Positions 31,731 to 53,660 of a stretch of DNA of 64,000 nucleotides are shown one piece after another (within the stretch, counting starts at the first letter, position 1; every line of letters starts with the position of its first letter). The notes beneath the pieces are model-generated. The model had not been told where the DNA came from, made no database searches, and saw only the letters and a list, made by a program, of their open reading frames with translations. Where the stretch lies: the NCBI RefSeq assembly GCF_016735515.1, contig NZ_JAERQZ010000001.1:2716746-2780745 (forward strand), read 5' to 3'. The stretch comes from Piscinibacter sp. HJYY11. GTDB taxonomy: Bacteria > Pseudomonadota > Gammaproteobacteria > Burkholderiales > Burkholderiaceae_C. The position numbers and the translations under genes are program-made.

Positions 31731-31731
31731 C

Positions 31732-32520: not shown

Positions 32521-32524
32521 GGCA

Positions 32525-33694: not shown

Positions 33695-33740
33695 GGGCTC
33701 GTGCTCGTGGGGGTTGTGGCGTGATGGGTTGTTCTGGGTG

Positions 33741-34685: not shown

Positions 34686-34705
34686 GGGCGTCTCCCTTCG
34701 TGCGC

Positions 34706-35695: not shown

Positions 35696-35725
35696 GTGAT
35701 GTGTGCTTTCGTCAGGAAAAGGGGC

Positions 35726-35749
35726 GCCCGACCCGACGGGGCGTCGGGC
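35726..35749 (-). promoter_or_regulatory. Alternative hairpins between ssuE and ssuA
   Basis: CCCGACG (35732-35738) can pair with CGTCGGG (35742-35748), and GCCCGAC (35726-35732) can pair with GTCGGGC (35743-35749). The two left arms share one right arm. On the minus-strand transcript a CCCCTTTTCC run follows. This may be an attenuator or partial terminator separating ssuE from the transporter genes. Confidence 0.45.
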
Positions 35750-35833
35750 ACCGAAGTCGCCCACGAGGGCGAGGAGACAACCGGGAAACTGGAAACTGCG
35801 GAGGTCTGCGCGAGCCGGGGCCGGCTCAGCCGG

Positions 35834-36400
35834 TCAACATCGCGCCGGTTCGGCGCTGCGCATTCGGTCGGTGGCGGCGAGCAGCGGCTGCAGCGCGCGG
35901 TCGAGCCGCTCCAGCAGGGCATCGTCGGGCGCATAGCCCCCGGTGGCGCTACCCGCGGGCAGCGAGGGCAGCTGCGCATCGGTGGCATAGACACCGTCGA
36001 GGATGTTGCGCGCGCCCAGGGCCGAGAGCACCGGCTTCAGCGCGTAGTCGACCGCCAGCAGGTGGGCGATGCTGCCCCCGGTGGCCAGCGGCAGCACGGT
36101 CTTGCCGCGCAGCGCGTCCTGCGGCAGCAAGTCGAGCCAGAGCTTGAGCAGGCCGCTGTAGGCCGCCTTGTAGATGGGCGTGGAGACGATCAGCACGTCG
36201 GCCTCGGCCACACGCGCGACGCTCGCCGCCACGTCGGGGTGCGACGCATCGGCGGCCACCAGCGCGTGCGCCGGCAGCTCGCGCACATAGACACGGTGGC
36301 GCTCGTGCGCCGCGTTTTCGAGCCGGGCCTGCGCCAGCTCGAGCAGCCAGCCGGAGCGCGAGCGTTGTGAGGGACTGCCTGAAATGCTGAGGATCTTCAT
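35834..36400 (-). CDS. ssuE: NADPH-dependent FMN reductase
   Basis: A 188-residue flavodoxin-like reductase supplying FMNH2 to SsuD. It shows KILSISGSPSQRSRSGWLL at the FMN phosphate site, TPIYKAAYSGLLKLWLDLLP, and LATGGSIAHLLAVDYALKPV, all typical of SsuE/MsuE. It is the first gene of the ssu block; the gap of 138 bases to the second gene holds alternative hairpins. It is divergent from the yitT-like gene. Confidence 0.92.
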   Translation of the reverse strand: MKILSISGSPSQRSRSGWLLELAQARLENAAHERHRVYVRELPAHALVAADASHPDVAASVARVAEADVLIVSTPIYKAAYSGLLKLWLDLLPQDALRGKTVLPLATGGSIAHLLAVDYALKPVLSALGARNILDGVYATDAQLPSLPAGSATGGYAPDDALLERLDRALQPLLAATDRMRSAEPARC

Positions 36401-36471
36401 GGTGACTGCACGATAGCCAACAGCCCGCACGCTGCCTACGAACGAAATCGAGCATCGATATCGCTTTGGCG

Positions 36472-36486
36472 GCCAGGCCGATGCCA
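36472..36486 (-). promoter_or_regulatory. Weak sigma54-like site ahead of ssuE
   Basis: The minus strand reads TGGCAT-CGGCC-TGGCC with the correct 10-base spacing between GG and GC. The -24 half is good, but the -12 half has G in place of the second T. It lies 72 bases before the ssuE ATG. It is supported mainly by the two better sites nearby. Confidence 0.25.
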
Positions 36487-36513
36487 CTTCCACACGCGTG
36501 GAGAATCCGCCCC

Positions 36514-37128
36514 ATGGCAGACCCCGACCCCTCGACGCTTCGGCACACGCCGCTGGAAGACCTGCAGGCACTGCTGATCGGCACCCTGCTCGTGTCGCTG
36601 GCGGTCACGCTCTTCCAGCATGCCGGGCTGCTGTCGGGCGGCACCGCGGGCATCGCCTTCCTCGCGCACTACCTCGGCGGCTGGTCGTTCGGCCTCGCCT
36701 ACTTCGTCATCAACCTGCCCTTCTATTGGCTGGCGTGGCGGCACATGGGCAAGAGCTTCACGCTGCGCACGCTGGCGGCGGTGGTGCTCGTGGCGGTGAT
36801 GAGCGACTGGCTGCCGCGCCACCTCGTGCTGGCCTCGCTCGACGCATGGCTGGCCGCGCTGCTCGGCGGCGTGCTGATGGGCAACGGTTTCCTGGTGCTG
36901 TTCCGGCACCAGGCGAGCCTGGGCGGCCTGGGCATCCTCGCGCTGCTCGCCCAGAAGAAGAAGGGCTGGCGGGCCGGGCACGTGCAGATGGCGATGGACG
37001 CGGCGATCGTGTGCGCGGCGCTGGCCACCGTGCCGCTCGACCGGGTCGCCCTCTCGGTGGCGGCCGCCGTGGTGCTCAACCTCGTGATCGCCACCAACCA
37101 CCGCCCCGGGCGCTACGTGGCCCAGTAG
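36514..37128 (+). CDS. YitT-family (DUF161) membrane protein
   Basis: A 204-residue inner-membrane protein with about five or six helices. AGLLSGGTAGIAFLAHYLGG and FGLAYFVINLPFYWLAWRHMGK match the YitT family; GNGFLVLFRHQASLGGLGIL is the second conserved block. The C-terminal DUF2179 domain present in many YitT proteins is absent. Its function is not established. The ATG at 36514 follows GGAGA. It is divergent from ssuE. Confidence 0.82.
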   Translation: MADPDPSTLRHTPLEDLQALLIGTLLVSLAVTLFQHAGLLSGGTAGIAFLAHYLGGWSFGLAYFVINLPFYWLAWRHMGKSFTLRTLAAVVLVAVMSDWLPRHLVLASLDAWLAALLGGVLMGNGFLVLFRHQASLGGLGILALLAQKKKGWRAGHVQMAMDAAIVCAALATVPLDRVALSVAAAVVLNLVIATNHRPGRYVAQ

Positions 37129-38397: not shown

Positions 38398-38769
38398 ATG
38401 TCACCCGCCGCCCGTTCCCTGCAGGCCTTCGGTCTCTATCTGTGTGTGCTGGGCCCCGGCCTGCTCGTCGCGCCCGGGCCGCTGCTCGCGCCCTTCGGCA
38501 TCGCCGCGCCGCAGGAGGTGTGGGTGCGTGTGGCCGGCCTGCTCGCGTTGGTGATCGGCGCGTACTACCTGGTCGCAGCGCGGCACGAGTTCGTGCCGTT
38601 GATGCAGGCGAGCGTGGTGGCGCGCTTCGGCGTGCTGGTGGTGTTCACCGGCCTCGTGCTCGCGGCCGGGGCGCCGCCCGCGTTGATCGCCTTCGGCCTG
38701 GTGGACGCGGCGGCCGCCACCTGGACGGCCGTGGCCCTGCGCCGCAGCCTCAGGCCAGCGTGCGCTTGA
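38398..38769 (+). CDS. Small four-helix membrane protein
   Basis: A 123-residue protein with four hydrophobic segments (about 8-28, 42-62, 73-95, 98-115) and short charged loops. An ACGAGGAG-type ribosome site lies just before the ATG. I recognise no specific family; the pattern resembles small uncharacterised membrane proteins of proteobacteria. Its end overlaps the convergent dienelactone-hydrolase gene by 20 bases. Confidence 0.7.
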   Translation: MSPAARSLQAFGLYLCVLGPGLLVAPGPLLAPFGIAAPQEVWVRVAGLLALVIGAYYLVAARHEFVPLMQASVVARFGVLVVFTGLVLAAGAPPALIAFGLVDAAAATWTAVALRRSLRPACA

Positions 38770-39637
38770 AGAACGCGACCGTGCGCTGCCACGCCAGCTT
38801 GGCGGCGGCCTCGTCGTAGCGCGGCGTGGTGTCGTTGTTGAAGCCGTGCTGCGTGTTCGGGTAGACGTGCGCCTCGTAGGGGACGCCGGCCGCCTTCAGC
38901 GCGGCTTCATACGCGGGCCAGCCGGCGTTGATGCGCTCGTCGTTGCTTGCGTACTGGATCAAGAGCTGCGCCTTGATGCGCGGCACCTGGTCGGCCGGCG
39001 GCTGCACGCCGTAGAAGGGCACGCCGGCCGCGAGCTCGGGCACACGCGTCGCGAGGAAGTTGACGATGCCCCCGCCGTAGCAGAAGCCCACCGCGCCCAC
39101 CTTGCCGTTGCCCGCCGGCAGCGCCTTCAGGTAGCTGGTGGCGACGAGGAAGTCTTCGCGTGTCTTGGCCTGGTCGAGCTTGGGGAAGAGCTCGCGCGCT
39201 TTGTCCTCGTCACCGGGGTAGCCGCCCAGCGGGGCAAGCGCATCGGGGGCGAGCGCGATGAAGCCGTCGACCGCGAGGCGGCGGGTGATGTCTTCGATGT
39301 GCGGGTTCAAGCCGCGGTTCTCGTGGATCACGAGCACGGTGGGCAGCTTGCCGGAGGCATTGGCCGGCTGCGCGAGGTAGGCCTTCACGGTGCCGTGGCC
39401 CTGCGGCGACGGGATCTCGACACGGGTCGTCTTGATGCGCGCATCGGTGGGCGCGACCTGCTGCGCGGCGGCGAAGTTGGGGCTGAGCGAGGCCAGCAGG
39501 CCGGCAGCGGAGGCACCGGCGGTGGCGTAGCGCGAGGCGCCGTCGAGGAAGCCGCGGCGGCTCAAGCCACCGTGCACGTACTGGTCGAAAAGCTTCAAGA
39601 CTTCGGGATGGAAGTCTTGCGCGGTGAGTCGGGACAT
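38750..39637 (-). CDS. Tat-exported dienelactone hydrolase family protein
   Basis: A 295-residue YghX-type dienelactone hydrolase. A twin-arginine signal (LSRRGFLDGASRYATAGASA) lies at about residues 24-55, so it is probably periplasmic. The catalytic Cys is in VGFCYGGGIVN, with Asp in QYASNDERINAGW and His in NTQHGFNNDT. It also has VIHENRGLNPHIED. It lies 115 bases downstream of the sigma54 regulator gene, in the same direction, and may be co-transcribed. The substrate is unknown. Confidence 0.87.
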   Translation of the reverse strand: MSRLTAQDFHPEVLKLFDQYVHGGLSRRGFLDGASRYATAGASAAGLLASLSPNFAAAQQVAPTDARIKTTRVEIPSPQGHGTVKAYLAQPANASGKLPTVLVIHENRGLNPHIEDITRRLAVDGFIALAPDALAPLGGYPGDEDKARELFPKLDQAKTREDFLVATSYLKALPAGNGKVGAVGFCYGGGIVNFLATRVPELAAGVPFYGVQPPADQVPRIKAQLLIQYASNDERINAGWPAYEAALKAAGVPYEAHVYPNTQHGFNNDTTPRYDEAAAKLAWQRTVAFFKRTLA

Positions 39638-39752
39638 GTCGTGTGCCTCCTGGTTGGTGTGATGGGCGTGGACGAGGCGCGTCGAAGGCCAGGCAGGGCC
39701 GCGCACGCGAATGTAGGCCGCGCCTGCAGCGCGGTCCATCACGGGGAGCGGC

Positions 39753-40931
<1,179 letters not shown>

Positions 40932-41118
40932 GCCGCGGACCATAGTCCGCACGGCACGCATCGCCAATGCCTTTTTTCGGCTTTCGATATATGCGAATCG
41001 TGGCCTGCTGCATTCGCGGCAGCACCCGGCGGCTCGCTGCTGAAAACACACACGCGCGCTGAGCGCTTCGCCACAGGCGACACCTCGTTTTTCCAACGCT
41101 TCCCTCGTGGGGCGGCGA

Positions 41119-41134
41119 TGGCACAACCGTTGCA
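41119..41134 (+). promoter_or_regulatory. Sigma54 -24/-12 promoter of the TonB-receptor operon
   Basis: TGGCAC (41119-41124), AACCG, TTGCA (41130-41134): both elements match the sigma54 consensus, with 10 bases between GG and GC. Transcription should start near 41145. The activator gene is 190 bases away and divergent. Confidence 0.87.
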
Positions 41135-41160
41135 ATGCAGCGCGTTCGCCATCGCCACCC

Positions 41161-41167
41161 GGAAGGA
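41161..41167 (+). promoter_or_regulatory. Ribosome-binding site deciding the receptor start
   Basis: GGAAGGA lies 7 bases before the in-frame TTG at 41174. Because the ATG at 41135 overlaps the -12 promoter element, this site supports translation from the TTG. Confidence 0.55.
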
Positions 41168-41173
41168 AAACCG

Positions 41174-44005
41174 TTGCAGATTCACCGAAAGAGCCCCACG
41201 TCGCGGACGACATCGCAAGGGGCCCCGTTCAAGCGCCGCGCGCTGAACACCGCCGTTCTCGCCATCTTCGGATCGGCCTCGCTCCTGCACCCGGCCGTCA
41301 GCCAGACCGCGACGCCCACCGACCCCGCACTCGAAGCCCTGCAGAAGGAAAACGCGGCGCTGCGTGCGCAACTCGAAGCGCTGAAAGCGGCCACGGCCGC
41401 ATCGGCACCCGCCGCCGCATCGGCGTCTGCATCGGCCCCCGCGGCGGCGGCCTCCGCGCCCGCATCCGCGCCGGACGCCACGCCTGCACAAGCGCCCGGC
41501 CTGAGCGTCACCGTGCGCAGCCGCAAGCCGCTGCAGACGGTGAAGGAGATCCCGCAGTCGATCTCGGTCGTGAGCGGCGACGACCTGAAGCAGGAGGACT
41601 CCACGTCGCTCGAAGCCATCACCAAGCGGCTGTCGAACGTGAAGTGGAACTACGGCAACAGCCAGACCAGCAACTACTCCATCCGCGGCCTCGGCAAGAT
41701 CGCCAACAGCCAGGCGGCCGACCCGAGCGTGGGCCTGTACGTCGACGGCGTGGCCTTCGCCTACAACCCGCTGGCGAGCTTCGAGTTCTACGACGTCGAC
41801 ACCGCGGCCGTGTCGCGCGGACCGCAGGGCTTCGCCTACGGCAAGAACGCAACCATCGGTGCGATCCAGCTCCGCTACAAGCGCCCGTCCTTCGTGCCGT
41901 CGACCGAGGTCTCGCTCGGCTACAACCTCTACGAGAAGCAGACCTGGGGCGAGTCGAACGGCAACGTGACCGCCACCGCCGTGGCCACCGGCCCGATCGA
42001 GGACGGCCTGCTCGCCTACCGCACCTCGCTGCGCGTGAACAAGGGCGGCGGCTGGATCTACAACAGCTACAACCCCGACAACCAGTACATCAACTCCGAC
42101 CGTGTGTCGGGCCGCCTGCAGCTGCTGGCCACGCCCTCGGCCGACTTCGACGCGCGCATCGCACTCGAGGTCAACCCGCGCATGAGCGAGAACGCCAACA
42201 TCGGGTCGACCAACTTCTTCTTCAAGCAAACGCCGGCCACCTACTGGAACGGCGCCTCGACGAGCACGCTGCTCACCACCGAAGCCCGCCTCTCGCGGCC
42301 CTGGTTCACCCGCAACGCGAGCTACACCGTCACCGGCAACTACTACAGCGACGAGTTCATCGCGAGCGACACGCAGCAGGGCCTCGTGACCGGCAGCAAC
42401 GGCCTGTGGGCCGAGCTCAACTGGACGCTCAACGACTCGAACAAGCTGACCTCGGTCACCGCCTTCAAGGACTACTACTTCAACGCCTTCCGCGACGATG
42501 AAGGCACCGTGTTCGACGTGCAGACGGCGGCCGGCCAGAACATCAAGCACACGCAGTACAGCCAGGAACTGCGGCTGAAGTCGAAGCTCTCCGAGTCGGT
42601 GGACCTCACCACCGGCCTCTTCGCGCTGCGCTCGGTGAACGACAGCGGCAGCAATGCGGTGTTCGGCAGCGATGCGGGGGCGTGGTTCGCGAGCAATGCG
42701 CAGTACGGACGACTCGACGCCGATTCCGCCGGGCGGCAGCTGCTGGTCGACTCGCTGGCCGACCTGTGGCGCAAATCGCCGCAGCGGGCGATCAACAAGA
42801 CGCTCGCGTTCTACAGCAGCAGCGACTGGAAGCTCAGCGACGACCTGAGCCTCAACACCGGCGCCCGCTTCTCGCACGAGAGCCGCCGGCTGCAGCAGGA
42901 GTCGAAGATCATCCAGCAGGGCTACGGCGTTGACCTGAACCCGGGCAACATCGGCGGCTTCAACACCACCGCGACCGGCGCGCTCGGCACCAACACGGCC
43001 GATCAGATCGCCGTCGCCAACCGCGTGGCGCTGCGCTATTTCGGCGTGGCCAACTACGCCTCGCTCACGCCCGACCAGCAGCGCCAGGTCGCCGACGCCA
43101 AGGCGATTCGCGCCGGCCGCATCGGCACGCTGCACCCGCTCTTCGAAGCCGATCGCGCCAGCAAGAACCAGATCACCTGGAGCGTGAGCCCGAGCCTCAA
43201 GCTCAGCACCGACAGCACCGCCTACCTGACGCTCGCACACGGCGAGAAGTCGGGCGTGCCCGGCATCCTCACCACCTCGGGCTCGCCGGTGCAGTACGAA
43301 GTGCGGCCGGAGAAGAACAACGCGGCCGAGCTGGGCGTGAAGAACACCCTCTTCGGCGGCCAGCTGGTGCTCAACGCGGCGGCCTTCATCAACGACATCA
43401 AGGACTACCAGCAGACCGTGTCGTTCTACGACGCGGCCGCCACCGCCGCCAACGGCCAGACCACCTACACCTCGGCCCCAGGCAACGTGCCGAAGGTGCG
43501 AGCGAAGGGCCTGGAGCTGGATGCGGCGTACACCGGCTTCCAGAACTTTGAGCTGCGCTTCTCGGGCGCCTACAACGACGCGCGCTACAGGAGCTACCCG
43601 ACGGCAGCACTGCCGGTCGAGCGGGCCAATGAAGCCTCGGGGGCAACCCCGATCTACTACTACGACGCCTCCGGCAAGACCCTCCCCGGCGCGTCCAAGC
43701 TGTCGCTCAACCTCGGCGTGTCGTTCCGCAAGAACATCTCCGAGACCCAACAGTTCCACGCGAGCTGGAACACCTCCTACAACGGCCGCTACAACTCGGA
43801 CAACAACCTCTCCGAGTACGCGTGGATCCCCGCCTCGAGCGTCACCGACGTCTCGCTCGGCGTGGGCGCGGTGGGTGGCCGCTGGGACTTCAACTTCTAC
43901 GTGAAGAACCTGTTCGACGACGACACCCCCCGCAACGTGACCTGGAACGCGTGGGCGCCGACCTTCCCTCGCCTCTTCGGCATCACCTTGTCCACGAAGC
44001 TCTGA
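41174..44005 (+). CDS. TonB-dependent outer-membrane receptor
   Basis: About 943 residues from the TTG. A basic N-terminus and hydrophobic segment (FKRRALNTAVLAIFGSASLL) act as signal. A coiled-coil/Ala-rich linker (about 45-110) includes LEALQKENAALRAQLEALKA. The plug (about 115-240) starts SVTVRSRKPLQTVKEIPQSI and contains YSIRGLGKIANS and PSVGLYVDGV. The rest is a barrel, with the TonB-receptor C-terminal type VKNLFDDDTPRNVTW. It ends STKL instead of an aromatic residue. It resembles FecA/iron-complex-type receptors of broad specificity. It heads a sigma54-driven six-gene operon; its ligand is unknown. Confidence 0.88.
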   Translation: MQIHRKSPTSRTTSQGAPFKRRALNTAVLAIFGSASLLHPAVSQTATPTDPALEALQKENAALRAQLEALKAATAASAPAAASASASAPAAAASAPASAPDATPAQAPGLSVTVRSRKPLQTVKEIPQSISVVSGDDLKQEDSTSLEAITKRLSNVKWNYGNSQTSNYSIRGLGKIANSQAADPSVGLYVDGVAFAYNPLASFEFYDVDTAAVSRGPQGFAYGKNATIGAIQLRYKRPSFVPSTEVSLGYNLYEKQTWGESNGNVTATAVATGPIEDGLLAYRTSLRVNKGGGWIYNSYNPDNQYINSDRVSGRLQLLATPSADFDARIALEVNPRMSENANIGSTNFFFKQTPATYWNGASTSTLLTTEARLSRPWFTRNASYTVTGNYYSDEFIASDTQQGLVTGSNGLWAELNWTLNDSNKLTSVTAFKDYYFNAFRDDEGTVFDVQTAAGQNIKHTQYSQELRLKSKLSESVDLTTGLFALRSVNDSGSNAVFGSDAGAWFASNAQYGRLDADSAGRQLLVDSLADLWRKSPQRAINKTLAFYSSSDWKLSDDLSLNTGARFSHESRRLQQESKIIQQGYGVDLNPGNIGGFNTTATGALGTNTADQIAVANRVALRYFGVANYASLTPDQQRQVADAKAIRAGRIGTLHPLFEADRASKNQITWSVSPSLKLSTDSTAYLTLAHGEKSGVPGILTTSGSPVQYEVRPEKNNAAELGVKNTLFGGQLVLNAAAFINDIKDYQQTVSFYDAAATAANGQTTYTSAPGNVPKVRAKGLELDAAYTGFQNFELRFSGAYNDARYRSYPTAALPVERANEASGATPIYYYDASGKTLPGASKLSLNLGVSFRKNISETQQFHASWNTSYNGRYNSDNNLSEYAWIPASSVTDVSLGVGAVGGRWDFNFYVKNLFDDDTPRNVTWNAWAPTFPRLFGITLSTKL

Positions 44006-44024
44006 CCTCACTGGGAGAAGCAGC

Positions 44025-46430
44025 ATGAAAGCCTCACGACTCACCGCCGTCCTGGCGCTGGGCACGTTCACGGCCCTCCTGGGCCTGACCGTGTCCTCGC
44101 AGGAGAAGCCCAACCCCGTGCCCACCAGCGGGCCACGCGCGATCTCGCCGACCTGGGCCTACCAGCCCATCAAGGAACCCGCCGTGCCCGCGGTGCAGGA
44201 CGCCCGCTGGGCGCGCACCTCGATCGACCGCTTCGTGCTCGCCAAGCTCGAAGCGAACCAGCTCAAGCCCTCCGGCGAGGCCGACCGTGCCACGCTGATC
44301 CGAAGGCTCTACCTCGACGTCCACGGCGTGATCCCCACGCCCGAGCAGGTGCAGGCCTTCGTCAAGGACCGCAGCCCCAATGCCTACGAGAAGGTGGTCG
44401 ACGAGGTGCTCGCGTCGCCGCGCTACGGCGAGCGCCAGGGCCGCCGCTGGCTCGACCTTGCGCGTTACGCCGACACCACCGGCTACTCCGACGACGAGCA
44501 ACGCCCCGGCATGTGGCGCTACCGCGACTACGTGATCAAGTCGTTCAACGAGGACAAGCCCTTCGACCGCTTCGTGCGCGAGCAGATCGCCGGCGACGAG
44601 CTGTGGCCCAACAAGCAGGAGGCCGTGGTCGCGACCGGCTTCCTGCGCGGCTACCCCGACGCACCCGACCACCGCGACCTGGTGCAGAAGCGCTACCAGA
44701 GCATCACCGACATGACCGACACGGTGGGCACGGTGCTGCTGGGCCAGTCGCTCGAATGCGCGCGCTGCCACAACCACAAGGCCGACCGCATCTCGCAGAA
44801 GGAATACTTCCAGCTGCAGGCCTTCTTCGCCAACACCATCCCAAGCGACACGCTGCCGGTGCTCGAGAAGGGCGAACGCGAGCGCAAGTTCGAGGCCGAC
44901 TTCGCGGCCTGGCAGGCCGCCACCGCGCCGGTGCGCAAGAAGCTCGACGCCTTCATCGCACCGCACAAGGAAGAGGTCGACCAGTACGGCCGCGAGCGCT
45001 TCTACGAAGACGGCCGCGTGGCGCTCTTCAAGCCCGAGAAGGAGTGGACCGCGCTCGACCGCTGGCTGAACTACCGCTACAACCAGTACGTGGTCAAGGA
45101 CAACCCCGACTACGGCTGGGACTACAGCTACTACGGGATGTCGAATGCGGCCTTCCGCAACGCCTACGACCAGGCGCTGGCCGACAAGAGCTTCGACCCC
45201 AAGAAGCTTGCCGAGCTGAAGACGCGCTACGACGAGTACGCGAAGCTGCTGCGCGAGTACCGCGCCTTCAACGACAAGCGCCCGCAGGGCGGCGCCACGA
45301 TCCTCTCGGCCCTCACCGAGCTGGGCAAGACCGACGCGGCCAAGCAGCACGTCTACGAAGGCGGCAACCACGAGCGGCCGCTGGAGGAAGTGCAGCCCGG
45401 CTTCCCGGCGCTCATCACGCCCAAGTACACGCAGCCGAAGATCGTGCCGACCGGTCACTCGTCGGGCCGGCGTGTGGCGCTGGCCGAATGGCTGCTCGAT
45501 GCGCAGAACCCGCTCACCACGCGCGTGTTTGTTAACCGCCTGTGGGCCAGCTACTTCGGCGACGGCATCGTGCCGACGGTCAGCGACTTCGGCCGCGCCG
45601 GCCAGCGCCCCTCGCACCCCGAGCTGCTCGACCACCTGGCGACCAACTTCGTCAAGAACGGCTGGAGCGTGAAGAAGCTCACCCGCGAGATCGTGCTGTC
45701 GGCCGCCTACCGGCAGTCGTCGGTGGTGCGTGACGACGCGATCAAGACCGACCCCGACAACCGCCTGCTCGCCTACTACCCGCGCAAGCGGCTCGACTCC
45801 GAGCAGGTGCGCGACTCGCTGCTCGCCGCGGCCGGCCTGCTGCAGGAGCGCAACGGGGGCCCGGGCGTCTACCCGCCCATCCCCGAGGCGGTGATGAAGC
45901 AGTCGACGCGCCGTGTCGAGGCCTTCTGGCCGGTGTCGAAGAACGTGGCCGACCACCACACCCGCAGCGTCTACGTCTACGTGCGCCGCAGCGTGCCCTA
46001 TCCGATCTTCGAGAACTTCGACGGCGCCTCGCCGCAGAACCCGCACAGCAAGCGCGAGGTGACGACCACGCCGCAGCAGTCGCTCACGCTCTTCAACAAC
46101 GAGCTGGTGTACGAGTGGTCGAAGGCACTCGCGGGACGCGTGATCCGCGAAACCGGCGCGAGCGCCAAGGACAGCGAAGACGCGCAGCTCGACCGCCTGT
46201 TCCAGGTGCTCTTTGCCCGTGCGCCGAGCAAGGCCGAGCGCGACAGCGCCCGCGCCTTCCTCGCCCGCCACGACAAGAGCCTGCGCGCCGAAGCGACCAG
46301 CGGCCGCCTCGCGGTCGCCGTGCCGGTGGGCTTGAAGGAGCTACCCGACACACCGGCCACGCGACTGGCGGCGTTCGTCGACCTGACCCACGCACTCGCC
46401 AATTCCAACGAATTCATCTACCGCTTCTGA
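44025..46430 (+). CDS. DUF1549/DUF1553 (PSCyt2/PSD1-type) protein with CxxCH motif
   Basis: An 801-residue exported protein with a signal peptide (about 1-25). The DUF1549 part (about 60-270) has SIDRFVLAKLEANQLKPSGE, RRLYLDVHGVIPTP, RRWLDLARYADT, and a haem-type motif CARCHNHK (Cys245, Cys248, His249). The C-terminal DUF1553 part (about 480-740) has RRVALAEWLLDAQNPLTTR, VNRLWASYFGDGIV and PQQSLTLFNNELVYEW. These paired domains are abundant in Planctomycetes and are usually followed by DUF1501, as here. The function is not known. Confidence 0.88.
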   Translation: MKASRLTAVLALGTFTALLGLTVSSQEKPNPVPTSGPRAISPTWAYQPIKEPAVPAVQDARWARTSIDRFVLAKLEANQLKPSGEADRATLIRRLYLDVHGVIPTPEQVQAFVKDRSPNAYEKVVDEVLASPRYGERQGRRWLDLARYADTTGYSDDEQRPGMWRYRDYVIKSFNEDKPFDRFVREQIAGDELWPNKQEAVVATGFLRGYPDAPDHRDLVQKRYQSITDMTDTVGTVLLGQSLECARCHNHKADRISQKEYFQLQAFFANTIPSDTLPVLEKGERERKFEADFAAWQAATAPVRKKLDAFIAPHKEEVDQYGRERFYEDGRVALFKPEKEWTALDRWLNYRYNQYVVKDNPDYGWDYSYYGMSNAAFRNAYDQALADKSFDPKKLAELKTRYDEYAKLLREYRAFNDKRPQGGATILSALTELGKTDAAKQHVYEGGNHERPLEEVQPGFPALITPKYTQPKIVPTGHSSGRRVALAEWLLDAQNPLTTRVFVNRLWASYFGDGIVPTVSDFGRAGQRPSHPELLDHLATNFVKNGWSVKKLTREIVLSAAYRQSSVVRDDAIKTDPDNRLLAYYPRKRLDSEQVRDSLLAAAGLLQERNGGPGVYPPIPEAVMKQSTRRVEAFWPVSKNVADHHTRSVYVYVRRSVPYPIFENFDGASPQNPHSKREVTTTPQQSLTLFNNELVYEWSKALAGRVIRETGASAKDSEDAQLDRLFQVLFARAPSKAERDSARAFLARHDKSLRAEATSGRLAVAVPVGLKELPDTPATRLAAFVDLTHALANSNEFIYRF

Positions 46431-46442
46431 ACGGAGACCCAC

Positions 46443-47882
46443 ATGTCACATCACGACCATCAACGCCGCAACTTCCTCGGCTCCGCGCTCGCAGTGGGTG
46501 GCCTCGTCGGCACCGGCGGCGTCTTCTCTGAAGTGCACGCAGCCGAACCACAGGCCGCCGATGCTCCCGTCGACCCGCTCGCCCCCAAGCAGCCCCACCA
46601 CACGCCGAAGGCGAAGTCGGTGATCTGGCTGCACATGAACGGCGCGCCGTCCACGCTCGACCTCTTCGACTACAAGCCCGAGCTCGTCAAGCTGCACGGT
46701 CAGGACGTGCCGGCCTCCTTCCTCAAGGGCGTGCAGGTCAACACGCAGGGCGGCGCCGGCAAGCTGCTCGCGAGCAAGCGCACCTGGAAGCAGCACGGCC
46801 AGAGCGGCAAGTACGTCTCGGACCTCTTGCCCAACCTCGCGCGCCATGTGGACGACATCGCCTTCATCCACAACAGCACGACCGTCGGCGCCACGCACGA
46901 CATCTCGACCATCAAGCTCAACACCGGCGCCCTCACGCCGGGCCGCCCCTCGCTCGGCGCCTGGGTGCAATACGCGCTCGGCACCAACAACCGCGACCTG
47001 CCCGCCTACATCGTGCTGAGCAACGGTGGCCGCGGCCTGGAGAGCGGCTCGGTGAACTACACCGCGGGCTTCCTGCCGGCGGTGTACCAGGGCATCCCGC
47101 TGCAGCTGGGCAACACGCCCATCCTCTACCTCGACCGGCCCGACCTGCTGGCCGCCAAGCAGCAGCGCGAGGCGCTCGACTTCCTGCGCGAGTTCAACAA
47201 GTCGCACGCCAAGGCCCGCCCCAACGACAGCGAGCTGCGTGCGCGCATCGAGGCCTATGAGCTCGCCTACCGCATGCAGAGCACGGTGCCCGAGGTGGTC
47301 GACATCCGCAAGGAGACCGCCGCCACCCGCACCGCCTACGGCATCGGCGAAGAAGCGACCAACGACTACGGCACCAACCTGCTGCGAGCGCGCCGCCTCG
47401 TCGAGAACGGCGTGCGCTTCGTGCAGGTGGTCTCGGGCCAGGCGGGCAAGTACCGCGACTGGGACGCGCACGAAGACCTGGAAGGCAACCACGCCGCGCA
47501 GTCGCGCATGATCGACAAGCCGGTCGCAGCATTGCTGGCCGACCTGAAGCAGCGGGGCCTGCTCGACTCGACGCTCGTCGTGTGGACCTCCGAATTCGGC
47601 CGCACCTCGTACGGCCAGTCGGGCACCGGGCGCGACCACAACCCCTGGGGCTACACGCAGTGGTTCGCCGGCGCCGGCATCAAGGCCGGCACCACGTACG
47701 GCCAGACCGACGAGATCGGCCTCAAGTCGGTGGGCGACAACGCCGTCGACACCTACGACATCCACGCCACGGTGCTGCAGCTGCTGGGCCTGAACCACCT
47801 GAAGACGACCTACCTGCACCTCGGCCGCTCCGAGCGCCCGACGGTGGTCTACGGCCGGGTGGTGCAGGAGGTGCTGGCATGA
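46443..47882 (+). CDS. DUF1501 family protein (Tat-exported, phosphatase/sulfatase-fold)
   Basis: A 479-residue protein with a Tat signal: QRRNFLGSALAVGGLVGTGG. It shows VIWLHMNGAPSTLDLFDYKPE, HNSTTVGATHDISTIKLNTG, LDSTLVVWTSEFGRTSYGQS and GRDHNPWGYTQWFAGAGIK, the DUF1501 hallmarks. DUF1501 is grouped with the alkaline phosphatase/sulfatase fold, so metal-dependent hydrolysis of an ester (possibly sulfate) is conceivable but unproven. It starts 12 bases after the DUF1549/DUF1553 gene; the two are usual neighbours. Confidence 0.88.
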   Translation: MSHHDHQRRNFLGSALAVGGLVGTGGVFSEVHAAEPQAADAPVDPLAPKQPHHTPKAKSVIWLHMNGAPSTLDLFDYKPELVKLHGQDVPASFLKGVQVNTQGGAGKLLASKRTWKQHGQSGKYVSDLLPNLARHVDDIAFIHNSTTVGATHDISTIKLNTGALTPGRPSLGAWVQYALGTNNRDLPAYIVLSNGGRGLESGSVNYTAGFLPAVYQGIPLQLGNTPILYLDRPDLLAAKQQREALDFLREFNKSHAKARPNDSELRARIEAYELAYRMQSTVPEVVDIRKETAATRTAYGIGEEATNDYGTNLLRARRLVENGVRFVQVVSGQAGKYRDWDAHEDLEGNHAAQSRMIDKPVAALLADLKQRGLLDSTLVVWTSEFGRTSYGQSGTGRDHNPWGYTQWFAGAGIKAGTTYGQTDEIGLKSVGDNAVDTYDIHATVLQLLGLNHLKTTYLHLGRSERPTVVYGRVVQEVLA

Positions 47883-48478
47883 CACGCGCTGCGCGCTACG
47901 CTGCACTCGCCGCAGTGCTGGCCGCCGCGACGCTGGCCCTGCCCGCCTCGGCGGCGCTGAAGGAAGGCGACACCGCGCCCGACTTCCAGGCCCCTGCCGC
48001 ACTTGCCGGCAAGGCCTACACCTTCGAGCTCAAGCAGGCCCTGAAGAAGGGCCCGGTGGTCGTGTACTTCTACCCTGCGGCCTTTACGAACGGCTGCAGC
48101 CTGCAAGCGCACACCTTCGCCGTCAACGCCGAGCAGTTCGCGGCAGCCAACGCCACCGTGATCGGCCTCTCGCTCGACACGCCCGAACAGCTGCGCGAGT
48201 TCTCCGCCGACCCGCAGACCTGCGCCGGCAAGGTACCCGTGGCCTCCGACACCGACGGCCGCATCGCGCGCGCCTTCGACATTGGCGTGAGCGCGCCGGT
48301 CGCCGGCCGCAAGAACAACCGCGGCCAGGAGATCACCCACGGCCGCGCCGAGCGCACCACCTTCGTGGTGGCACCCAACGGCAAGGTGGGCGCCACCATC
48401 GGTGGCGTGGCCCCCGAAGAGAACGTGCTGCAGGCCCTGGCCGCGGTCCGCAAGATTTCTTCCACATCCAAACCATGA
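47879..48478 (+). CDS. Exported peroxiredoxin (AhpC/TSA family)
   Basis: A 199-residue thioredoxin-fold peroxiredoxin with a signal peptide (about 1-25, ending PASAA). The peroxidatic Cys is in YPAAFTNGCSLQAH and a possible resolving Cys in DPQTCAGKVP. Its ATG overlaps the DUF1501 stop by 4 bases. A periplasmic peroxidase in this operon suggests that the pathway makes peroxide or reactive oxygen. Confidence 0.87.
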   Translation: MTRAARYAALAAVLAAATLALPASAALKEGDTAPDFQAPAALAGKAYTFELKQALKKGPVVVYFYPAAFTNGCSLQAHTFAVNAEQFAAANATVIGLSLDTPEQLREFSADPQTCAGKVPVASDTDGRIARAFDIGVSAPVAGRKNNRGQEITHGRAERTTFVVAPNGKVGATIGGVAPEENVLQALAAVRKISSTSKP

Positions 48479-49458
48479 GAACACCGCACCACACCATGAC
48501 CCGCCTGGCCCTCGCGGCTGGCCTTTGCGCCCTCTTCACCGCCTGCGCGACCAAGCCGCAGGTCGCGGCCCTCACGCCCGCCATTCCTGGCGTGGTGAGC
48601 GGCGGCACGCCGATCGAGGTGATCAAGGAAGGCTTCGCCGGCACCGAAGGCCCGGTGACGCTGCCCGACGGCAGTCTGATCTTCACCGAGACCCCGGCCA
48701 ACCGCATCACGCGCATCGCCGACGATGGCAGCACCTCGACCTGGCTCGAGAACAGCAACGGCTCCAACGGCCTGGGCTTCACCGCCAACGGCGACCTCTA
48801 CGCCGTGCAGGTGCTGAAGACGCGCGTGGGCATCGTGCACCCGCCCGAGCGCGCCCGCACGCTGGCCGACAACTTCGAAGGCGCCCCCTTCGGCCGCCCC
48901 AACGACCTGGTGGTGGCGAAGGACGGCACCGTCTACTTCACCGACTCGGGCGCGCGCCTCGGCCCCAACGACCCGAAGCCCACGGTCACGCCCGCCAAGC
49001 CCGCGGTCTACCGCATCACCAAGCAGGGCCAGCTGCAACGCCTGGCCGACGACATCACCCGCCCCAACGGCATCCAGCTGAGCCCCGACGAGAAGGTGCT
49101 CTACGTCGCCAACACGGCGGGCGAACACGTGCTCGCCTTCGACCTGGGCGCCGACGGCAAGGTCGGCCCCAAGCGTAACTTCGCCAAGCTCGCCGGCTTC
49201 CGCCAGACCGACACCGGCCCGAGCAGCGGCGCCGATGGCCTGGCCGTCGACGCGGTGGGCCGCTTGTACGTGGCCTCGACCGCCGGCATCCAGGTGTTCG
49301 AAGCCGACGGCACGGCGCTGGGCGTCATCCCGCTGCCCAAGTCGCCGCAGAACCTCGCCTTCGCCGGCCGCGACAAGCGCACGCTCTACGCGGTGGGCCG
49401 CGGCTCGGCCTACCGCATCGCCGCGCTGACGTCGGGCCTGACCGAGCGCGCCAAGTGA
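48475..49458 (+). CDS. SMP-30/gluconolactonase-like beta-propeller, probable lipoprotein
   Basis: A 327-residue protein. The N-terminus has a lipobox-like LFTAC after a hydrophobic stretch. The SGL (SMP-30/gluconolactonase/LRE-like) region shows GFAGTEGPVTLPDGSLIFTE (metal-site Glu), APFGRPNDLVVAKDGTVYFT (metal-site Asn-Asp), DDITRPNGIQLSPDEKVLYV and SGADGLAVDAVGRLYVA. The family hydrolyses lactones and related esters. It overlaps the peroxiredoxin gene by 4 bases. It probably acts on a product of the operon's oxidative steps, by inference. Confidence 0.88.
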   Translation: MRTPHHTMTRLALAAGLCALFTACATKPQVAALTPAIPGVVSGGTPIEVIKEGFAGTEGPVTLPDGSLIFTETPANRITRIADDGSTSTWLENSNGSNGLGFTANGDLYAVQVLKTRVGIVHPPERARTLADNFEGAPFGRPNDLVVAKDGTVYFTDSGARLGPNDPKPTVTPAKPAVYRITKQGQLQRLADDITRPNGIQLSPDEKVLYVANTAGEHVLAFDLGADGKVGPKRNFAKLAGFRQTDTGPSSGADGLAVDAVGRLYVASTAGIQVFEADGTALGVIPLPKSPQNLAFAGRDKRTLYAVGRGSAYRIAALTSGLTERAK

Positions 49459-49481
49459 TCTTCGAATCCTCACGACCGTTC

Positions 49482-49946
49482 ATGAACCACAAGCTCGCCA
49501 TCGTCACGCTCGCCACCACGCTCTCGATCAGCAGCCTGGCCTTCGGCCAGGCGGCCCCCAAGCCCGAGAACCAGATCAAGTGGCGACAGTCCAACTACCA
49601 GGTGCTCGCCTGGAACGCCGGGCGCATCAAAGCCTCGGTCGACGGCACCTACAACAAGGACGAAGTCCTGCGCGCCGCCAACAGCATCGCGGCGGTCGCC
49701 AACAGCAACCTGCTCGCGCTCTTCACCCCGGGCAGCGAAACGGGCAAGGGCTGGCGCGACACCACCGTCAAGCCCGCCTTCTTCACCGACAAGCGGGCAG
49801 CCGAGTTGAACAACGCCTTCATCAAGGAGGCAAACGAGCTGGTGAAAGTCGCTCAGTCAGGTGACGTGGCGGCGGTGAAGGAGCAGCACGGGAAGCTGGC
49901 GAAGGCCTGCAAGGCTTGCCATGATGATTTCCGTGTCACGAACTGA
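49482..49946 (+). CDS. Cytochrome c' (class II cytochrome c)
   Basis: A 154-residue exported haem protein. A signal peptide (about 1-24, ending LAFGQ) leads a four-helix protein with the single haem motif CKACHDDFR at the extreme C-terminus (Cys143, Cys146, His147), the class II arrangement. A GTG at 49455, overlapping the preceding stop, is an alternative start; the ATG at 49482 gives a cleaner signal peptide. It could take electrons from the CxxCH DUF1549 protein or bind a small ligand such as NO. It is the last gene of the operon. Confidence 0.88.
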   Translation: MNHKLAIVTLATTLSISSLAFGQAAPKPENQIKWRQSNYQVLAWNAGRIKASVDGTYNKDEVLRAANSIAAVANSNLLALFTPGSETGKGWRDTTVKPAFFTDKRAAELNNAFIKEANELVKVAQSGDVAAVKEQHGKLAKACKACHDDFRVTN

Positions 49947-50290: not shown

Positions 50291-50989
50291 TCAACGAGCG
50301 AAGGTCACATCCAACGTCACCTGCACTTCATCGGCCCCCCCGGCCGAGCACTTCATCTGCTTGATCGCGCCCTGCACGTACTTGTAGTACTGGCTGGGCC
50401 CTGACTGCGGGATCGCATCGACCACCTGCGCGCCACGCACCTTGATCAAGGCGCGCACCGTGCCGGCGATGCCGACCCGATCGAAGGCATCGCCCAGCAC
50501 GTTGGCCAGCACGTTCTGGTAGCCCGGGCAGGCGAGGCTGATCTCGCGCTTGACCACCGCCGGCGGTGCGGGCGGGGCAGGCGGCGCGGGCGGTGCGATC
50601 ACCACCGGCTCCTTCGGCGGCTCGGCCTGCACGGCGGTGATCACCGGTGCCGGAGGCGGTGCGACCGGCACCACCTCGGGCGGTGGCACGTACGCGGGTG
50701 GCGGTGGTGTCTGCGGCTTGGGCAGCTCGCGGATCTTTTCGATCTTGGGCGGCGGAGGTGGAGGCGGAGGTGGCGCGACCTCGGGCACGATGGCCAGCTG
50801 GATCGGCTTCTTCACCACCTCGACGGCCTCGCGCGCCAGGCCCGAGGCCAGCGCCCACGCGGCGAACACATGCAGCCCGACCACGACCGCGAGGCCGGTG
50901 CTGCTGCGCCCCGAGGCGCGCTTCTCGAATTCGGGCACCACCACCTCGCGCCATGGCAAGGAACCGGTGGTGGGGAGTACTGCGCTCAT
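50291..50989 (-). CDS. tonB: TonB-like energy transducer
   Basis: A 232-residue protein. A single N-terminal membrane anchor (about 32-50, GLAVVVGLHVFAAWALASGL) precedes a long proline-rich spacer (about 70-150, including a run of nine prolines). The C-terminal domain (about 155-232) has ALIKVRGAQVVDAIPQSGPS. TonB carries inner-membrane proton-motive energy to outer-membrane receptors. It is the last gene of a four-gene operon and ends in a clear terminator. The receptor at 41174-44005 may be one client. Confidence 0.85.
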   Translation of the reverse strand: MSAVLPTTGSLPWREVVVPEFEKRASGRSSTGLAVVVGLHVFAAWALASGLAREAVEVVKKPIQLAIVPEVAPPPPPPPPPKIEKIRELPKPQTPPPPAYVPPPEVVPVAPPPAPVITAVQAEPPKEPVVIAPPAPPAPPAPPAVVKREISLACPGYQNVLANVLGDAFDRVGIAGTVRALIKVRGAQVVDAIPQSGPSQYYKYVQGAIKQMKCSAGGADEVQVTLDVTFAR

Positions 50990-51013
50990 GTTCGGGCCCT
51001 CACGTCTCTTGGG

Positions 51014-51460
51014 TCATTTGTCGATGAACTGCTCGCTGCCCACCACGCCGAGCTTGTGCAGCCCGGCCTGGTTGATGGCCACCATCACCTCGGCGAAACG
51101 GTCGTAGCGAGCATGCTGGTCGGGGCGCACGTGCACCTCGGGCGGCGTGGCCTGCGTGGCGGCCGATTGCAGCTTGTGCTGCAGCTCGGCCACATCGGGC
51201 ACGGCCACGCCGTTCCAATGCACGACGCTGCCCGCGTCGATGTCGATGCGCACGACCTCGGGCTTCACGTCGGCCGGGGGCGGCGGCGTGCCGACCGGCA
51301 GGTTGAGGTTGACGTTGTGCAGCTGGATGGGGATGGTGATGATGAGCATCACCAGCAGCACCAGCATCACGTCGATCAGCGGCGTGGTGTTGATGTCGGA
51401 GAGCGGCGCGGCGTCGGCCACCTGGCGGCGGGCGATGCGCGGGTTGTTGCGTGCAGCCAT
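51014..51460 (-). CDS. exbD: ExbD/TolR-family biopolymer transport protein (second ExbD)
   Basis: A 148-residue protein with one transmembrane helix (about 25-45). The conserved SDINTTPLIDVMLVLLVMLI carries the essential Asp. It has an alanine/proline linker and a periplasmic domain. It lies between the other exbD and tonB, 24 bases before tonB. Paired ExbD proteins in one operon are common in Burkholderiales and Xanthomonads. Confidence 0.9.
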   Translation of the reverse strand: MAARNNPRIARRQVADAAPLSDINTTPLIDVMLVLLVMLIITIPIQLHNVNLNLPVGTPPPPADVKPEVVRIDIDAGSVVHWNGVAVPDVAELQHKLQSAATQATPPEVHVRPDQHARYDRFAEVMVAINQAGLHKLGVVGSEQFIDK

Positions 51461-51467
51461 GTCGTGC

Positions 51468-51896
51468 TCAACCCCGCGGCGGTGGTTCGGTGATGAAGCC
51501 CAGCTTCATGATGCCGGCGCGCTGGCAGGCGAGCAGGATGCGGCCCACCGGCGCATACGAGCCGCGGCTGTCGCCCCGCACGTGCACTTCGGGCTGCGGG
51601 TTCTGCTGGGCGACGACCTTGAGGCGCTGCACGAGGTCTTCGGTGCCGTTCAACTTGGCGTCGAACCAGAAGATGCCGCCTTGCGAGTCGACGCTGATCA
51701 CGATGTCTTTCGGCGTGCTCTCGCGCAGCTCGTTGCGCTGCTTCGGCAGGTCGACCGGCACGTTGAAGTTCACCACCGGGATGGTGATGAGGAAGATGAT
51801 CAGGAGGACCAGCATCACGTCGACGAGCGGCGTGGTGTTGATCTCCGAGACCACCTGCTCTGCGCCGCCACCGGCGCCTGGCAGGGTCATCGCCAT
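51468..51896 (-). CDS. exbD: ExbD/TolR-family biopolymer transport protein (first ExbD)
   Basis: A 142-residue protein with SEINTTPLVDVMLVLLIIFL around the single membrane helix, including the functional Asp. The sequence is clearly different from the second copy beyond the helix. Alternative start at 51890. It follows exbB by 19 bases and precedes the second exbD by 7. Confidence 0.9.
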   Translation of the reverse strand: MAMTLPGAGGGAEQVVSEINTTPLVDVMLVLLIIFLITIPVVNFNVPVDLPKQRNELRESTPKDIVISVDSQGGIFWFDAKLNGTEDLVQRLKVVAQQNPQPEVHVRGDSRGSYAPVGRILLACQRAGIMKLGFITEPPPRG

Positions 51897-51915
51897 GGGG
51901 ATGCTCCTGCTGCGA

Positions 51916-52719
51916 TCAGGCGGGCTGCGGCACGGCCGACACCGACGCCGCCTCGGGCGCCGCGGCGGCCGACGAAGCCGCCGACGACGAGCCGAGCAGC
52001 ACCGAGTGCAGCTCGCCGGAGAAGTCGCGCACCTCGTCCATCACCGCCGAGTTGCGGCGCAGCAGCCAGTTGTAGCCGAGCACCGCCGGCACGGCGACCG
52101 CGAGGCCGATGGCCGTCATGATGAGCGCCTCGCCCACGGGGCCGGCGACCTTGTCGATCGACGCCTGGCCCGCCACGCCGATGGCCGTGAGCGCGTGGTA
52201 GATGCCCCAGACGGTGCCGAAGAGACCGATGAAGGGCGAGGTGGAGCCCACGGTCGCGAGCACGCTCAGGCCCGACGAGAGCTTGCGCTGCACGCGCTCG
52301 GTGGCACGATGCAGCGACAGGTCGACCCACTCGTTGAAATCGACCTTGGCATGCAGGCCGCTATGCTTCTTCGACGACGCGAGGCCGCTCTCGGCGATGA
52401 AGCGGAAGGGGCTGCTGCTCGCGAGCCTGGCGGCACCGGCCTGCACCGTGCCGGCATTCCAGAACTCGCGCCCGGCGGCCTTGGCGTGGCGGCCGATGCG
52501 GGTCTGCTCGAGCAGCTTGGTGATGATCACGTACCAGCTGGCGATGCTCATCACACCGAGGATCGCGAGCACGGCCTTGGCGACGAAGTCGCTCTGCGAC
52601 CACAGCGCACTGAGGCCATAGGGGTTGTCGGTGGCGCCGGGTTGGGCGTGGGCCAGGCTGCAGGTCAGGGCAAGCAGCAGCGGCGCCCAGGTGCGCGCGG
52701 TCTTCAAGGAGAGAGTCAT
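51916..52719 (-). CDS. exbB: ExbB/TolQ-family proton channel protein
   Basis: A 267-residue protein. A signal-like first segment (ending SLAHAQ) is followed by three membrane helices. The MotA/TolQ/ExbB domain (about 110-235) shows LSVLATVGSTSPFIGLFGTV, GIYHALTAIG and EALIMTAIGLAVAVPAVLGYN. It forms the proton channel with the ExbD proteins. It is the first gene of the operon. The 236 bases upstream hold no gene; I see no clear Fur box there, only a TGCTGC-gcat-GCAGCA dyad at 52833-52848. Confidence 0.9.
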   Translation of the reverse strand: MTLSLKTARTWAPLLLALTCSLAHAQPGATDNPYGLSALWSQSDFVAKAVLAILGVMSIASWYVIITKLLEQTRIGRHAKAAGREFWNAGTVQAGAARLASSSPFRFIAESGLASSKKHSGLHAKVDFNEWVDLSLHRATERVQRKLSSGLSVLATVGSTSPFIGLFGTVWGIYHALTAIGVAGQASIDKVAGPVGEALIMTAIGLAVAVPAVLGYNWLLRRNSAVMDEVRDFSGELHSVLLGSSSAASSAAAAPEAASVSAVPQPA

Positions 52720-52955
52720 CGAAACATCCCGATGTGGTGACGGAGTCGAACGAGTGTCGATGCGGTGCAGCGCCTCGTGAAGAAAGCGTTTTGCAGATGA
52801 ATATTCGGCAGGGATCGCGGCCAGCGACGGCTTGCTGCGCATGCAGCAGATGAAGGTCGTGGGGTGCTGCCTCCGATGCAGGGGGTGTGGAAGTTCAACA
52901 CCTGCCCGACTGGCTACGATGAAGACCCGTTTGCATGACGCAGGAAGGAGCCCGC

Positions 52956-53660
52956 ATGTCACCCGAAAAAGTAGCCGTCGTGGTCGCTGGCGGCAGCGGC
53001 ATGGGCGCCGCAGCAGCGCGCCGGCTGGCGCGAGACGGTTTCAAGCTCGCCATCCTGTCGTCGTCCGGCAAGGGCGAAGCCCTGGCCCGCGAACTCGGCG
53101 GCGTCGGGGTGACCGGGTCGAACCAGTCGACCGAGGACCTGGCGCGACTGGTGGATCTCACAATTGCGCGCTGGGGCCGCATCGACGTGCTGGTCAACGG
53201 CGCTGGGCACGGCCCGCGTGCGCCGGTGCTGGAGCTCACCGACGAGCAGTGGCATACCGGCCTCGACGTCTACCTGCTCAACGTGATCCGCGGGACACGG
53301 CTCGTCGCCCCCTTCATGGTGAAACAACAAGGTGGCGCCATCGTCAACATCTCCACCGCATGGGTGGCCGAGCCGAGCCCGATGTTCCCGACCTCGGCCG
53401 TGTTCCGGGCGGGGCTCGCCGCCTTCACCAAGCTCTTCGCCGACGAGCATGCGGCGCACAACGTGCGCATGAACAACGTGCTGCCCGGCTGGATCGACAG
53501 CCTGCCCGCACGCGAAGAGCGCCGCCAGAGTGTGCCGATGCAGCGCTACGGCACGAGCGACGAGATCGCCGCGACGATCGCCTTCCTCGCGTCGGACGGC
53601 GCGGCCTACATCACGGGACAGAGCATCCGCGTGGATGGCGGCCTGATGCGATCGATCTGA
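52956..53660 (+). CDS. SDR-fold protein with degenerate catalytic site
   Basis: A 234-residue Rossmann-fold protein. The nucleotide motif is GGSGMGAAAARRLA, and NGAGHGPRAPVLELTDEQW and GQSIRVDGGLMRSI are typical of short-chain dehydrogenases. The catalytic YxxxK appears lost: the aligned segment reads TSAVFRAGLAAFTK, with Phe for Tyr and Leu for Lys. The Ser in VNISTAW remains. It may bind a cofactor or ligand without standard dehydrogenase activity. The ATG at 52956, after GGAAGGAG, is preferred over 52935. Confidence 0.85.
   Translation: MSPEKVAVVVAGGSGMGAAAARRLARDGFKLAILSSSGKGEALARELGGVGVTGSNQSTEDLARLVDLTIARWGRIDVLVNGAGHGPRAPVLELTDEQWHTGLDVYLLNVIRGTRLVAPFMVKQQGGAIVNISTAWVAEPSPMFPTSAVFRAGLAAFTKLFADEHAAHNVRMNNVLPGWIDSLPAREERRQSVPMQRYGTSDEIAATIAFLASDGAAYITGQSIRVDGGLMRSI

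Follow-up and report, generated by a model that had tools for sequence, protein, structure and literature searches.

Six co-directional genes (41174-49946) of Piscinibacter sp. HJYY11, preceded by a sigma54 site (41119-41134), form an operon that represents a copy of a cassette conserved in Pseudomonadota and built around a pair of proteins, DUF1549/DUF1553 and DUF1501. The operon lies in a 64,000-nucleotide stretch (contig NZ_JAERQZ010000001.1, positions 2,716,746 to 2,780,745), hereafter "the window", in which all coordinates are given. The cassette is real, conserved and coherently regulated in distantly related bacteria, and scavenging of sulfur from an organic compound is the leading candidate for its function, to which we give a probability of about 0.55. 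Members of DUF1549, DUF1553 and DUF1501 are abundant and uncharacterised, and for these families the cassette is a compact setting outside the Planctomycetes: it offers a defined promoter, a likely regulator, a testable nutrient and named carrier organisms. We did not find it described in the literature searched.

Distribution and composition of the cassette

The cassette was found in 16 further Burkholderiales-type loci (17 with the window; L006, counted here, is titled Gammaproteobacteria) and in 15 loci of a second order, which we call methanotroph-rich because its genome G702 was selected by an AMO (pmoA/amoA family) match. The DUF1549/1553 protein, the DUF1501 protein and a peroxiredoxin are present in all 17 and all 15. 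In the Burkholderiales-type loci they are joined by a cytochrome c' (13), a TonB receptor (11, two of them edge-cut), an SMP-30 protein (8) and a DLH-family hydrolase (6), and the neighbourhood search proposed in an earlier reading of the window from sequence alone, for the pair together with a TonB receptor, thus gave recurrent hits. Additional parts of other copies are c6 (about 130 aa with a C-terminal CxxCH), c7 (a two-domain cytochrome c), c14, b561 and PepSY proteins; among the second-order loci, c6 occurs in 15, c14 in 14, c7 in 11 and a PepSY_TM-type protein in 10. The small exported, rhodanese-like c14, with its conserved SNHAGR-type loop, is found in 22/32 cassette loci (among them L005, L044, L090, L093, L095, L106, L107, and L210-L224 minus L214) and in 0/80 random regions; in 13 of its 14 second-order loci it immediately precedes the DUF1549/1553 gene and shares its strand. 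No homologue was found in the window's own genome. Three loci (L003, L090, L106) carry c20, a protein of about 500 aa with no Pfam or NCBIfam match, and no TonB receptor was found in their examined stretches.

Carriage of the DUF1549/1553 gene is sporadic: 6/398 other Burkholderiales genomes had matches, as did 6/99 other relatives, of which G437, G440 and G449, from the same family, gave long matches, G406 and G448 gave fragments, and G025 was already within the Burkholderiales set. The remaining 10 genomes of the genus yielded no full copy, and 368 further genomes sampled from the class yielded one partial match; in the order of G702 the gene is present in 41/201 genomes and 13/48 genera. 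The best 120 database homologues include Methylomonas, Methylobacter, Methylomicrobium, Methylobacillus, Solimonas, Rubrivivax and Azonexus, and Zoogloea dura and Sapientia aquatica are among the named carriers. In G406, of the same genus as the window, DUF1549/1553 fragments, one with an in-frame stop, stand ahead of a DUF1501 gene (L099, L102), and the cassette seems to be decaying. Zoogloea loci L002 and L007 have a tandem pair of DUF1549/1553-DUF1501 units with a [2Fe-2S] protein after the second (Fer2 and Fer2_2 domains in L002), and L214 (G843) has three copies of the pair within 16 kb and no c14.

The sequence-only reading held that the DUF pair is known mostly from Planctomycetes. The pair does occur there and in other phyla: in 73 loci from Planctomycetes, Verrucomicrobia, Acidobacteria, Bacteroidota and others, the DUF1501 gene stands alongside that for DUF1549/1553 in 63. 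The Pseudomonadota sequences nevertheless form a clade of their own with redox partners of their own. Searched at E <= 1e-8 with Pseudomonadota queries, the 73 loci gave no peroxiredoxin, cytochrome c', c6, c7, c14, TonB receptor, DLH, b561 or PepSY match, one SMP-30 match (27%) and two activator matches (39-40%, general sigma54 activators); the queries were single proteins and some contigs short, so that distant homologues may be missed. In the DUF1501 tree the 37 Pseudomonadota rows form one clade with 100/100 support, as do 19 rows in another tree, with a long-branch warning that includes the window's row (0.71). Rows from Burkholderiales and from the second order interleave within the clade, which suggests transfer between them.

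All six genes of the window's operon are on the forward strand. The first encodes a TonB-dependent outer-membrane receptor (41174-44005; 943 aa) with plug (PF07715) and beta-barrel (PF00593) domains both over cut-off. Its start is probably TTG 41174, and not the listed ATG 41135, which immediately adjoins the promoter, in view of a ribosome site (GGAAGG) for TTG 41174 and of its 55-bp distance from the -24 site; the corresponding distance is 54-59 bp in seven other cassette TonB genes (L002 and L007 with two each; L004, L005 and L006 with one each), a count that leaves aside TonB genes of L006, L093 and L095 with a site nearby and misfitting called starts. The DUF1549/DUF1553 (PSCyt2-PSD1) protein (44025-46430) matches both Pfam domains (283.7 and 306.4 bits) and has a single haem c site, whose CxxCH is invariant in 28 sequences; no convincing PDB fold match was obtained. 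It is followed by the DUF1501 protein (46443-47882; 446.7 bits; Tat-like signal), an exported peroxiredoxin (47879-48478; Pfam Redoxin and AhpC-TSA, the latter at 97.6 bits; PxxxTxxC motif read by eye in the translation as PAAFTNGC), an SMP-30/gluconolactonase-like propeller (48475-49458; SGL, 143 bits), probably a lipoprotein to judge by eye from its LFTAC, and a class II cytochrome c' (49455-49946; Cytochrom_C_2). The cytochrome may start at GTG 49455 or, equally likely, at ATG 49482, ahead of the signal peptide. Gaps of 19 and 12 bp are followed by three 4-base overlaps (47879-47882, 48475-48478 and, given the GTG start, 49455-49458). Export signals were called by eye, without a signal-peptide program. 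The six products named in the sequence-only reading are thus recovered by Pfam, and its single, tightly spaced, sigma54-driven unit has the gene order and overlaps claimed.

Two genes on the opposite strand are part of the unit, a sigma54 activator (39753-40931) and an exported, YghX-like hydrolase of the DLH family (38750-39658; Pfam DLH and YqhI; Tat-like signal by eye; YghX NCBIfam score 425.5 bits for a cut-off of 460). The sequence-only reading left the hydrolase out of the unit; in L005, L044, L093, L094 and L106 a homologue (67-73% identity) forms part of the operon itself. Just 3' of the operon, and convergent with it, are (50291-52962, reverse strand) an ExbB-type gene and two ExbD genes recognised by Pfam, and beside them a proline-rich TonB-like protein with no Pfam match; these proteins may energise the operon's receptor.

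A shared promoter and palindrome

The -24/-12 element of the operon, TGGCACAACCGTTGCA (41119-41134, forward strand), reads TGGCAC-N5-TTGCA and is one of two matches of the sigma54 pattern searched in the window, the other (28716) having a spacer two bases longer. A lone match is weak evidence, because the pattern TGGCAYNNNNNTTGCW occurs 15 times in the genome and its reversed control 5 times; the site is convincing because it is conserved before cassette genes across loci, and sigma54 drive, proposed from the sequence, is upheld on this ground. On either side of the sigma54 site stand the arms of a perfect inverted repeat of 9 bp, GGCGATGGC and GCCATCGCC (41114-41156), which would overlap with the start of transcription.

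The promoter is accompanied by an upstream palindrome, CTGYTG-N6-CARCAG, and the two together are a conserved, shared switch of the cassette. An exploratory palindrome scan found TGTT-N8-AACA in 11/31 chosen promoters and in 0.05% of random pieces. A matrix trained on 16 sites from 10 of the 31 Burkholderiales-derived promoter regions, some of which are shared by divergent promoters, recovered 24/31 chosen promoters at a threshold of one match per 10 kb, and 14/21 regions outside the training set. The window's putative enhancer palindrome, CTGCTG-N6-CGGCAG (41005-41022), ranks third among the motif matches in the 64 kb, with 114 bp between it and the -24 site downstream.

The second order was examined with the matrix unchanged, over 450 bp upstream of each gene (sigma54 score >= 20.5, palindrome >= 9.5). 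Where c14 is the lead gene, a sigma54 site precedes it in 13/14 cases and a palindrome in 14/14, against backgrounds of 2.7% and 8.5% in random 480-bp pieces from the same loci; the near-identical L211 and L224 are both within the second-order promoter counts. The two elements are 101-179 bp apart, and 143-158 bp in 11/14. Among further fresh loci, both elements precede at least one cassette gene in L326, L321, L313 and L106; L107 falls slightly under the sigma54 threshold and L108 slightly under both.

The activator, whose start we place at ATG 40931, confirms the sequence-only reading in that an activator stands beside the operon. It is a sigma54 AAA+ protein without an N-terminal sensor: its Sigma54_activat domain (PF00158, 223 bits) begins at about residue 27 of 392 with no Pfam domain before it, and a match to the Fis-type domain HTH_8 reaches 21.1 bits, slightly under the cut-off of 22. 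The label SfnR-like is taken over from that reading as a presumed identity; an SfnR model was absent among the NCBIfam matches listed. It is the sole close SfnR-like gene of its genome, the other sigma54 activators reaching <=51% and mostly over part of their length. A homologue at E <= 1e-110 is present in 17/180 genomes of the family (its own included), and G437, G440 and G449, the family members with long DUF1549/1553 matches, all carry one. In L313 the activator gene is divergent from the DUF1549/1553 gene, with the palindrome and sigma54 site in between. We infer that the activator binds the palindrome.

Organic sulfur as the likely nutrient

In the mechanism that we favour, the SfnR-like activator would bind the palindrome upstream of the sigma54 promoter and turn the cassette on, most likely under shortage of preferred sulfur. 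The TonB receptor would take up a scarce organic compound; in the periplasm the DUF1549/1553 protein, predicted to bear haem and paired with DUF1501, would open it in a redox step, presumably by chemistry at a C-S bond. Cytochrome c' would carry electrons to or from the membrane, joined in other copies by further c-type cytochromes of small size and by a membrane protein of the b561 or PepSY kind; the peroxiredoxin would deal with peroxide or thiol by-products, the lactonase and DLH-type hydrolases would open ester or lactone products, and the released sulfur species would enter via sulfate or sulfonate carriers. Of the earlier suggestion of uptake plus periplasmic redox conversion, the presence of an uptake receptor and of redox proteins in the periplasm is supported. 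The enzymes of the SfnR system are cytoplasmic flavin monooxygenases; if organic sulfur is indeed scavenged, the cassette would supply a redox route outside the cytoplasm in addition to such known cytoplasmic monooxygenases.

The link to sulfur comes chiefly from neighbouring genes. Markers (SfnR-like, Sbp, SsuA types, SsuD, SrpI, CyD or ASST within the locus) accompany 8/17 Burkholderiales-type loci and 6/40 random 20-kb regions from seven of the same genomes, at a p of 0.014 that is optimistic, and to that extent counts against the sulfur reading, because the marker set was chosen from these very loci; the independent test in the second order, with markers fixed beforehand, gave just p=0.057 (3/15 and 1/40). 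SfnR-like genes alone occur in 6/17 Burkholderiales-type loci vs 2/40 random regions, and in 2/15 second-order loci vs 0/40. Within the stretches examined, a sulfur or cassette marker flanks 10/22 SfnR-like matches of the family besides the window's (L319 weak): on the sulfur side Sbp (L305, L306), SsuD (L318, L320) and an SsuA-type protein (L315, weakly L319), and on the cassette side DLH (L308), DUF1549/1553 (L313), c14 (L306) and b561 (L305, L306, L309, L311). Wider stretches around six of the SfnR-like genes yielded a TonB receptor and c14 in L321, Sbp, b561, c14 and a TonB receptor in L326, and a weak SsuE in L323; L322, L324 and L325 gave no marker. In genome G590 an SfnR-like gene (52%) is clustered with SsuD-type, SsuA-type and sfnG genes. 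The sequence-only link to sulfur genes therefore survives as a moderate statistical association; a switch shared with ssu genes does not, the sigma54 site and the palindrome both being missing upstream of the window's ssu operon.

That operon is an ssu-type cluster (30882-36571, reverse strand) encoding an ABC ATPase and permease, SsuD (over its NCBIfam equivalog cut-off), two SsuA-type proteins and an FMN reductase. Elsewhere, a type 2A encapsulin and its cysteine desulfurase are encoded in L094 and, by tblastn, in L211; in L220, genes resembling cysK and cysE accompany a truncated SrpI, none of which entered the count of the marker rule, and TauE-family genes are present in L216 and L220.

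Several further observations weigh against the sulfur reading. Both switch elements precede just 3/29 second-order promoters other than those of c14 (L209 included), namely the TonB genes of L211 and L224 and the second DUF1549/1553 gene of L222; many of the remaining promoters are those of genes behind c14. None of four promoters tested in L214 has the full switch, the promoter before the DUF1549/1553 gene of L094 fails the same test, and the Saccharobesus plasmid copy (L209), situated among pectin genes, is likewise without it. The combination of sigma54 site and palindrome was not found before Sbp genes (L005, L044, L326), SrpI clusters (L094, L211 and L220, the last with the palindrome alone), SsuD (L318), ASST (L215, L006), TauE (L216) or three sfnG genes in three genomes. 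No marker accompanies 12/22 SfnR-like matches, mostly within the 1.5 kb examined. In c14 the catalytic Cys is replaced by Ser in 21/21 aligned copies, so that this protein says little on sulfur; a separate rhodanese of L094 retains the Cys. Sulfur control is not established, since the testable adjacent sulfur genes, the ssu operon and the sfnG genes are without the signature, and it is the promoters of adjacent sulfur genes, together with the Saccharobesus copy, that hold our estimate to the value given above.

The Saccharobesus copy lies among pectate lyase and GH88 genes, and in Verrucomicrobia, according to a passage of PMC5615132, genes for pectin-lyase-like proteins, glycoside hydrolases and PSCyt proteins are neighbours of sulfatase genes. 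With the lactonase and DLH hydrolase within the unit, these observations would fit a cassette that obtains carbon by degrading an organic compound such as a polymer fragment of plant, algal or humic origin, the nearby sulfur genes being incidental. We regard this as quite improbable: no glycoside hydrolase or polysaccharide lyase was seen among the selected neighbours scanned, many carriers belong to the methanotroph-rich order, and SfnR-like and other sulfur genes are enriched near the cassette.

The receptor and its redox partners could instead serve a metal or haem complex, imported and then opened, with the TonB receptor, PepSY, cytochromes and b561 reducing the chelate in the periplasm and the SfnR-like protein merely a convenient sigma54 activator. 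TonB/PepSY pairs occur in iron uptake, and the second-order loci are rich in PepSY_TM-type proteins (10/15); the three solved chains matching the receptor are pesticin and colicin I receptors (plug region only), an NCBIfam TonB-hemin match falls under its cut-off, and the operon is followed by genes for ExbB and ExbD. Several SfnR-like genes, however, adjoin sulfate and sulfonate genes, and the lactonase and DLH hydrolases fit a reductase poorly, so that we consider metal or haem uptake unlikely.

The model of DUF1501 has an alkaline-phosphatase-superfamily fold. An ordinary formylglycine sulfatase is disfavoured for it, the Cys/Ser of C-x-P-S-R being replaced by an invariant His; the formylglycine column holds His (His152) in 35/35 aligned sequences, in a register that rests on a global profile alignment, the local alignment spanning the C-terminal part only. 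The sulfate-ester option of the sequence-only reading, taken as the work of DUF1501 as an ordinary sulfatase, is not supported, and sulfate-ester hydrolysis by DUF1501, releasing sulfate in the periplasm, is very improbable, as cytochromes would also be unneeded for a simple hydrolysis. Returning to organosulfur scavenging, we tentatively put forward, as a possibility well short of even odds, that the DUF1549/1553 protein, with its putative haem, and a DUF1501 with His at the nucleophile position form a new periplasmic enzyme freeing sulfur from imported organosulfur compounds. If so, the same sulfur-releasing chemistry would exist in dozens of Planctomycetes copies; in Rhodopirellula baltica, according to a passage of PMC2754498, DUF1549 and DUF1553 are represented 41 times each.

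Relation to known systems

PSCyt2-PSD1 and DUF1501 pairs of Planctomycetes, Verrucomicrobia and other phyla are of the same families as those of the cassette and likewise encoded by adjoining genes, and differ in that the peroxiredoxin, cytochromes, TonB receptor and DLH hydrolase went undetected with them (0/73 loci); their function is likewise unassigned in the relevant part of PMC5615132. The DUF1501 model shares its fold with the alkaline-phosphatase superfamily (sulfatases, NPP phosphodiesterases, PafA), from which the protein departs in that its nucleophile column holds an invariant His and neither Cys nor Ser nor Thr.

The type 2A encapsulin SrpI, with its cysteine desulfurase, adjoins cassette copies L094 and L211 and is truncated in L220; SrpI is induced by sulfur starvation in Synechococcus, as stated in a section of PMC8049743. 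It is a separate system without the cassette's promoter signature, and is also found away from the cassette (3/80 random regions).

The closest regulatory parallel is the SfnR-controlled scavenging of sulfones and sulfonates in Pseudomonas (sfnFG, msu), which like the cassette combines a sensor-less sigma54 activator with sulfur-gene neighbours. Expression of SfnR in P. putida is reportedly under CysB control. In P. aeruginosa, SfnR1 and msu/ssu proteins increase on sulfur starvation, as a portion of PMC12581299 describes. Unlike the cassette, the three sfnG genes have no palindrome with a sigma54 site, and, whereas the Pseudomonas system acts through cytoplasmic flavin monooxygenases (as set out in a passage of PMC8234197), the cassette encodes exported haem and sulfatase-fold proteins.

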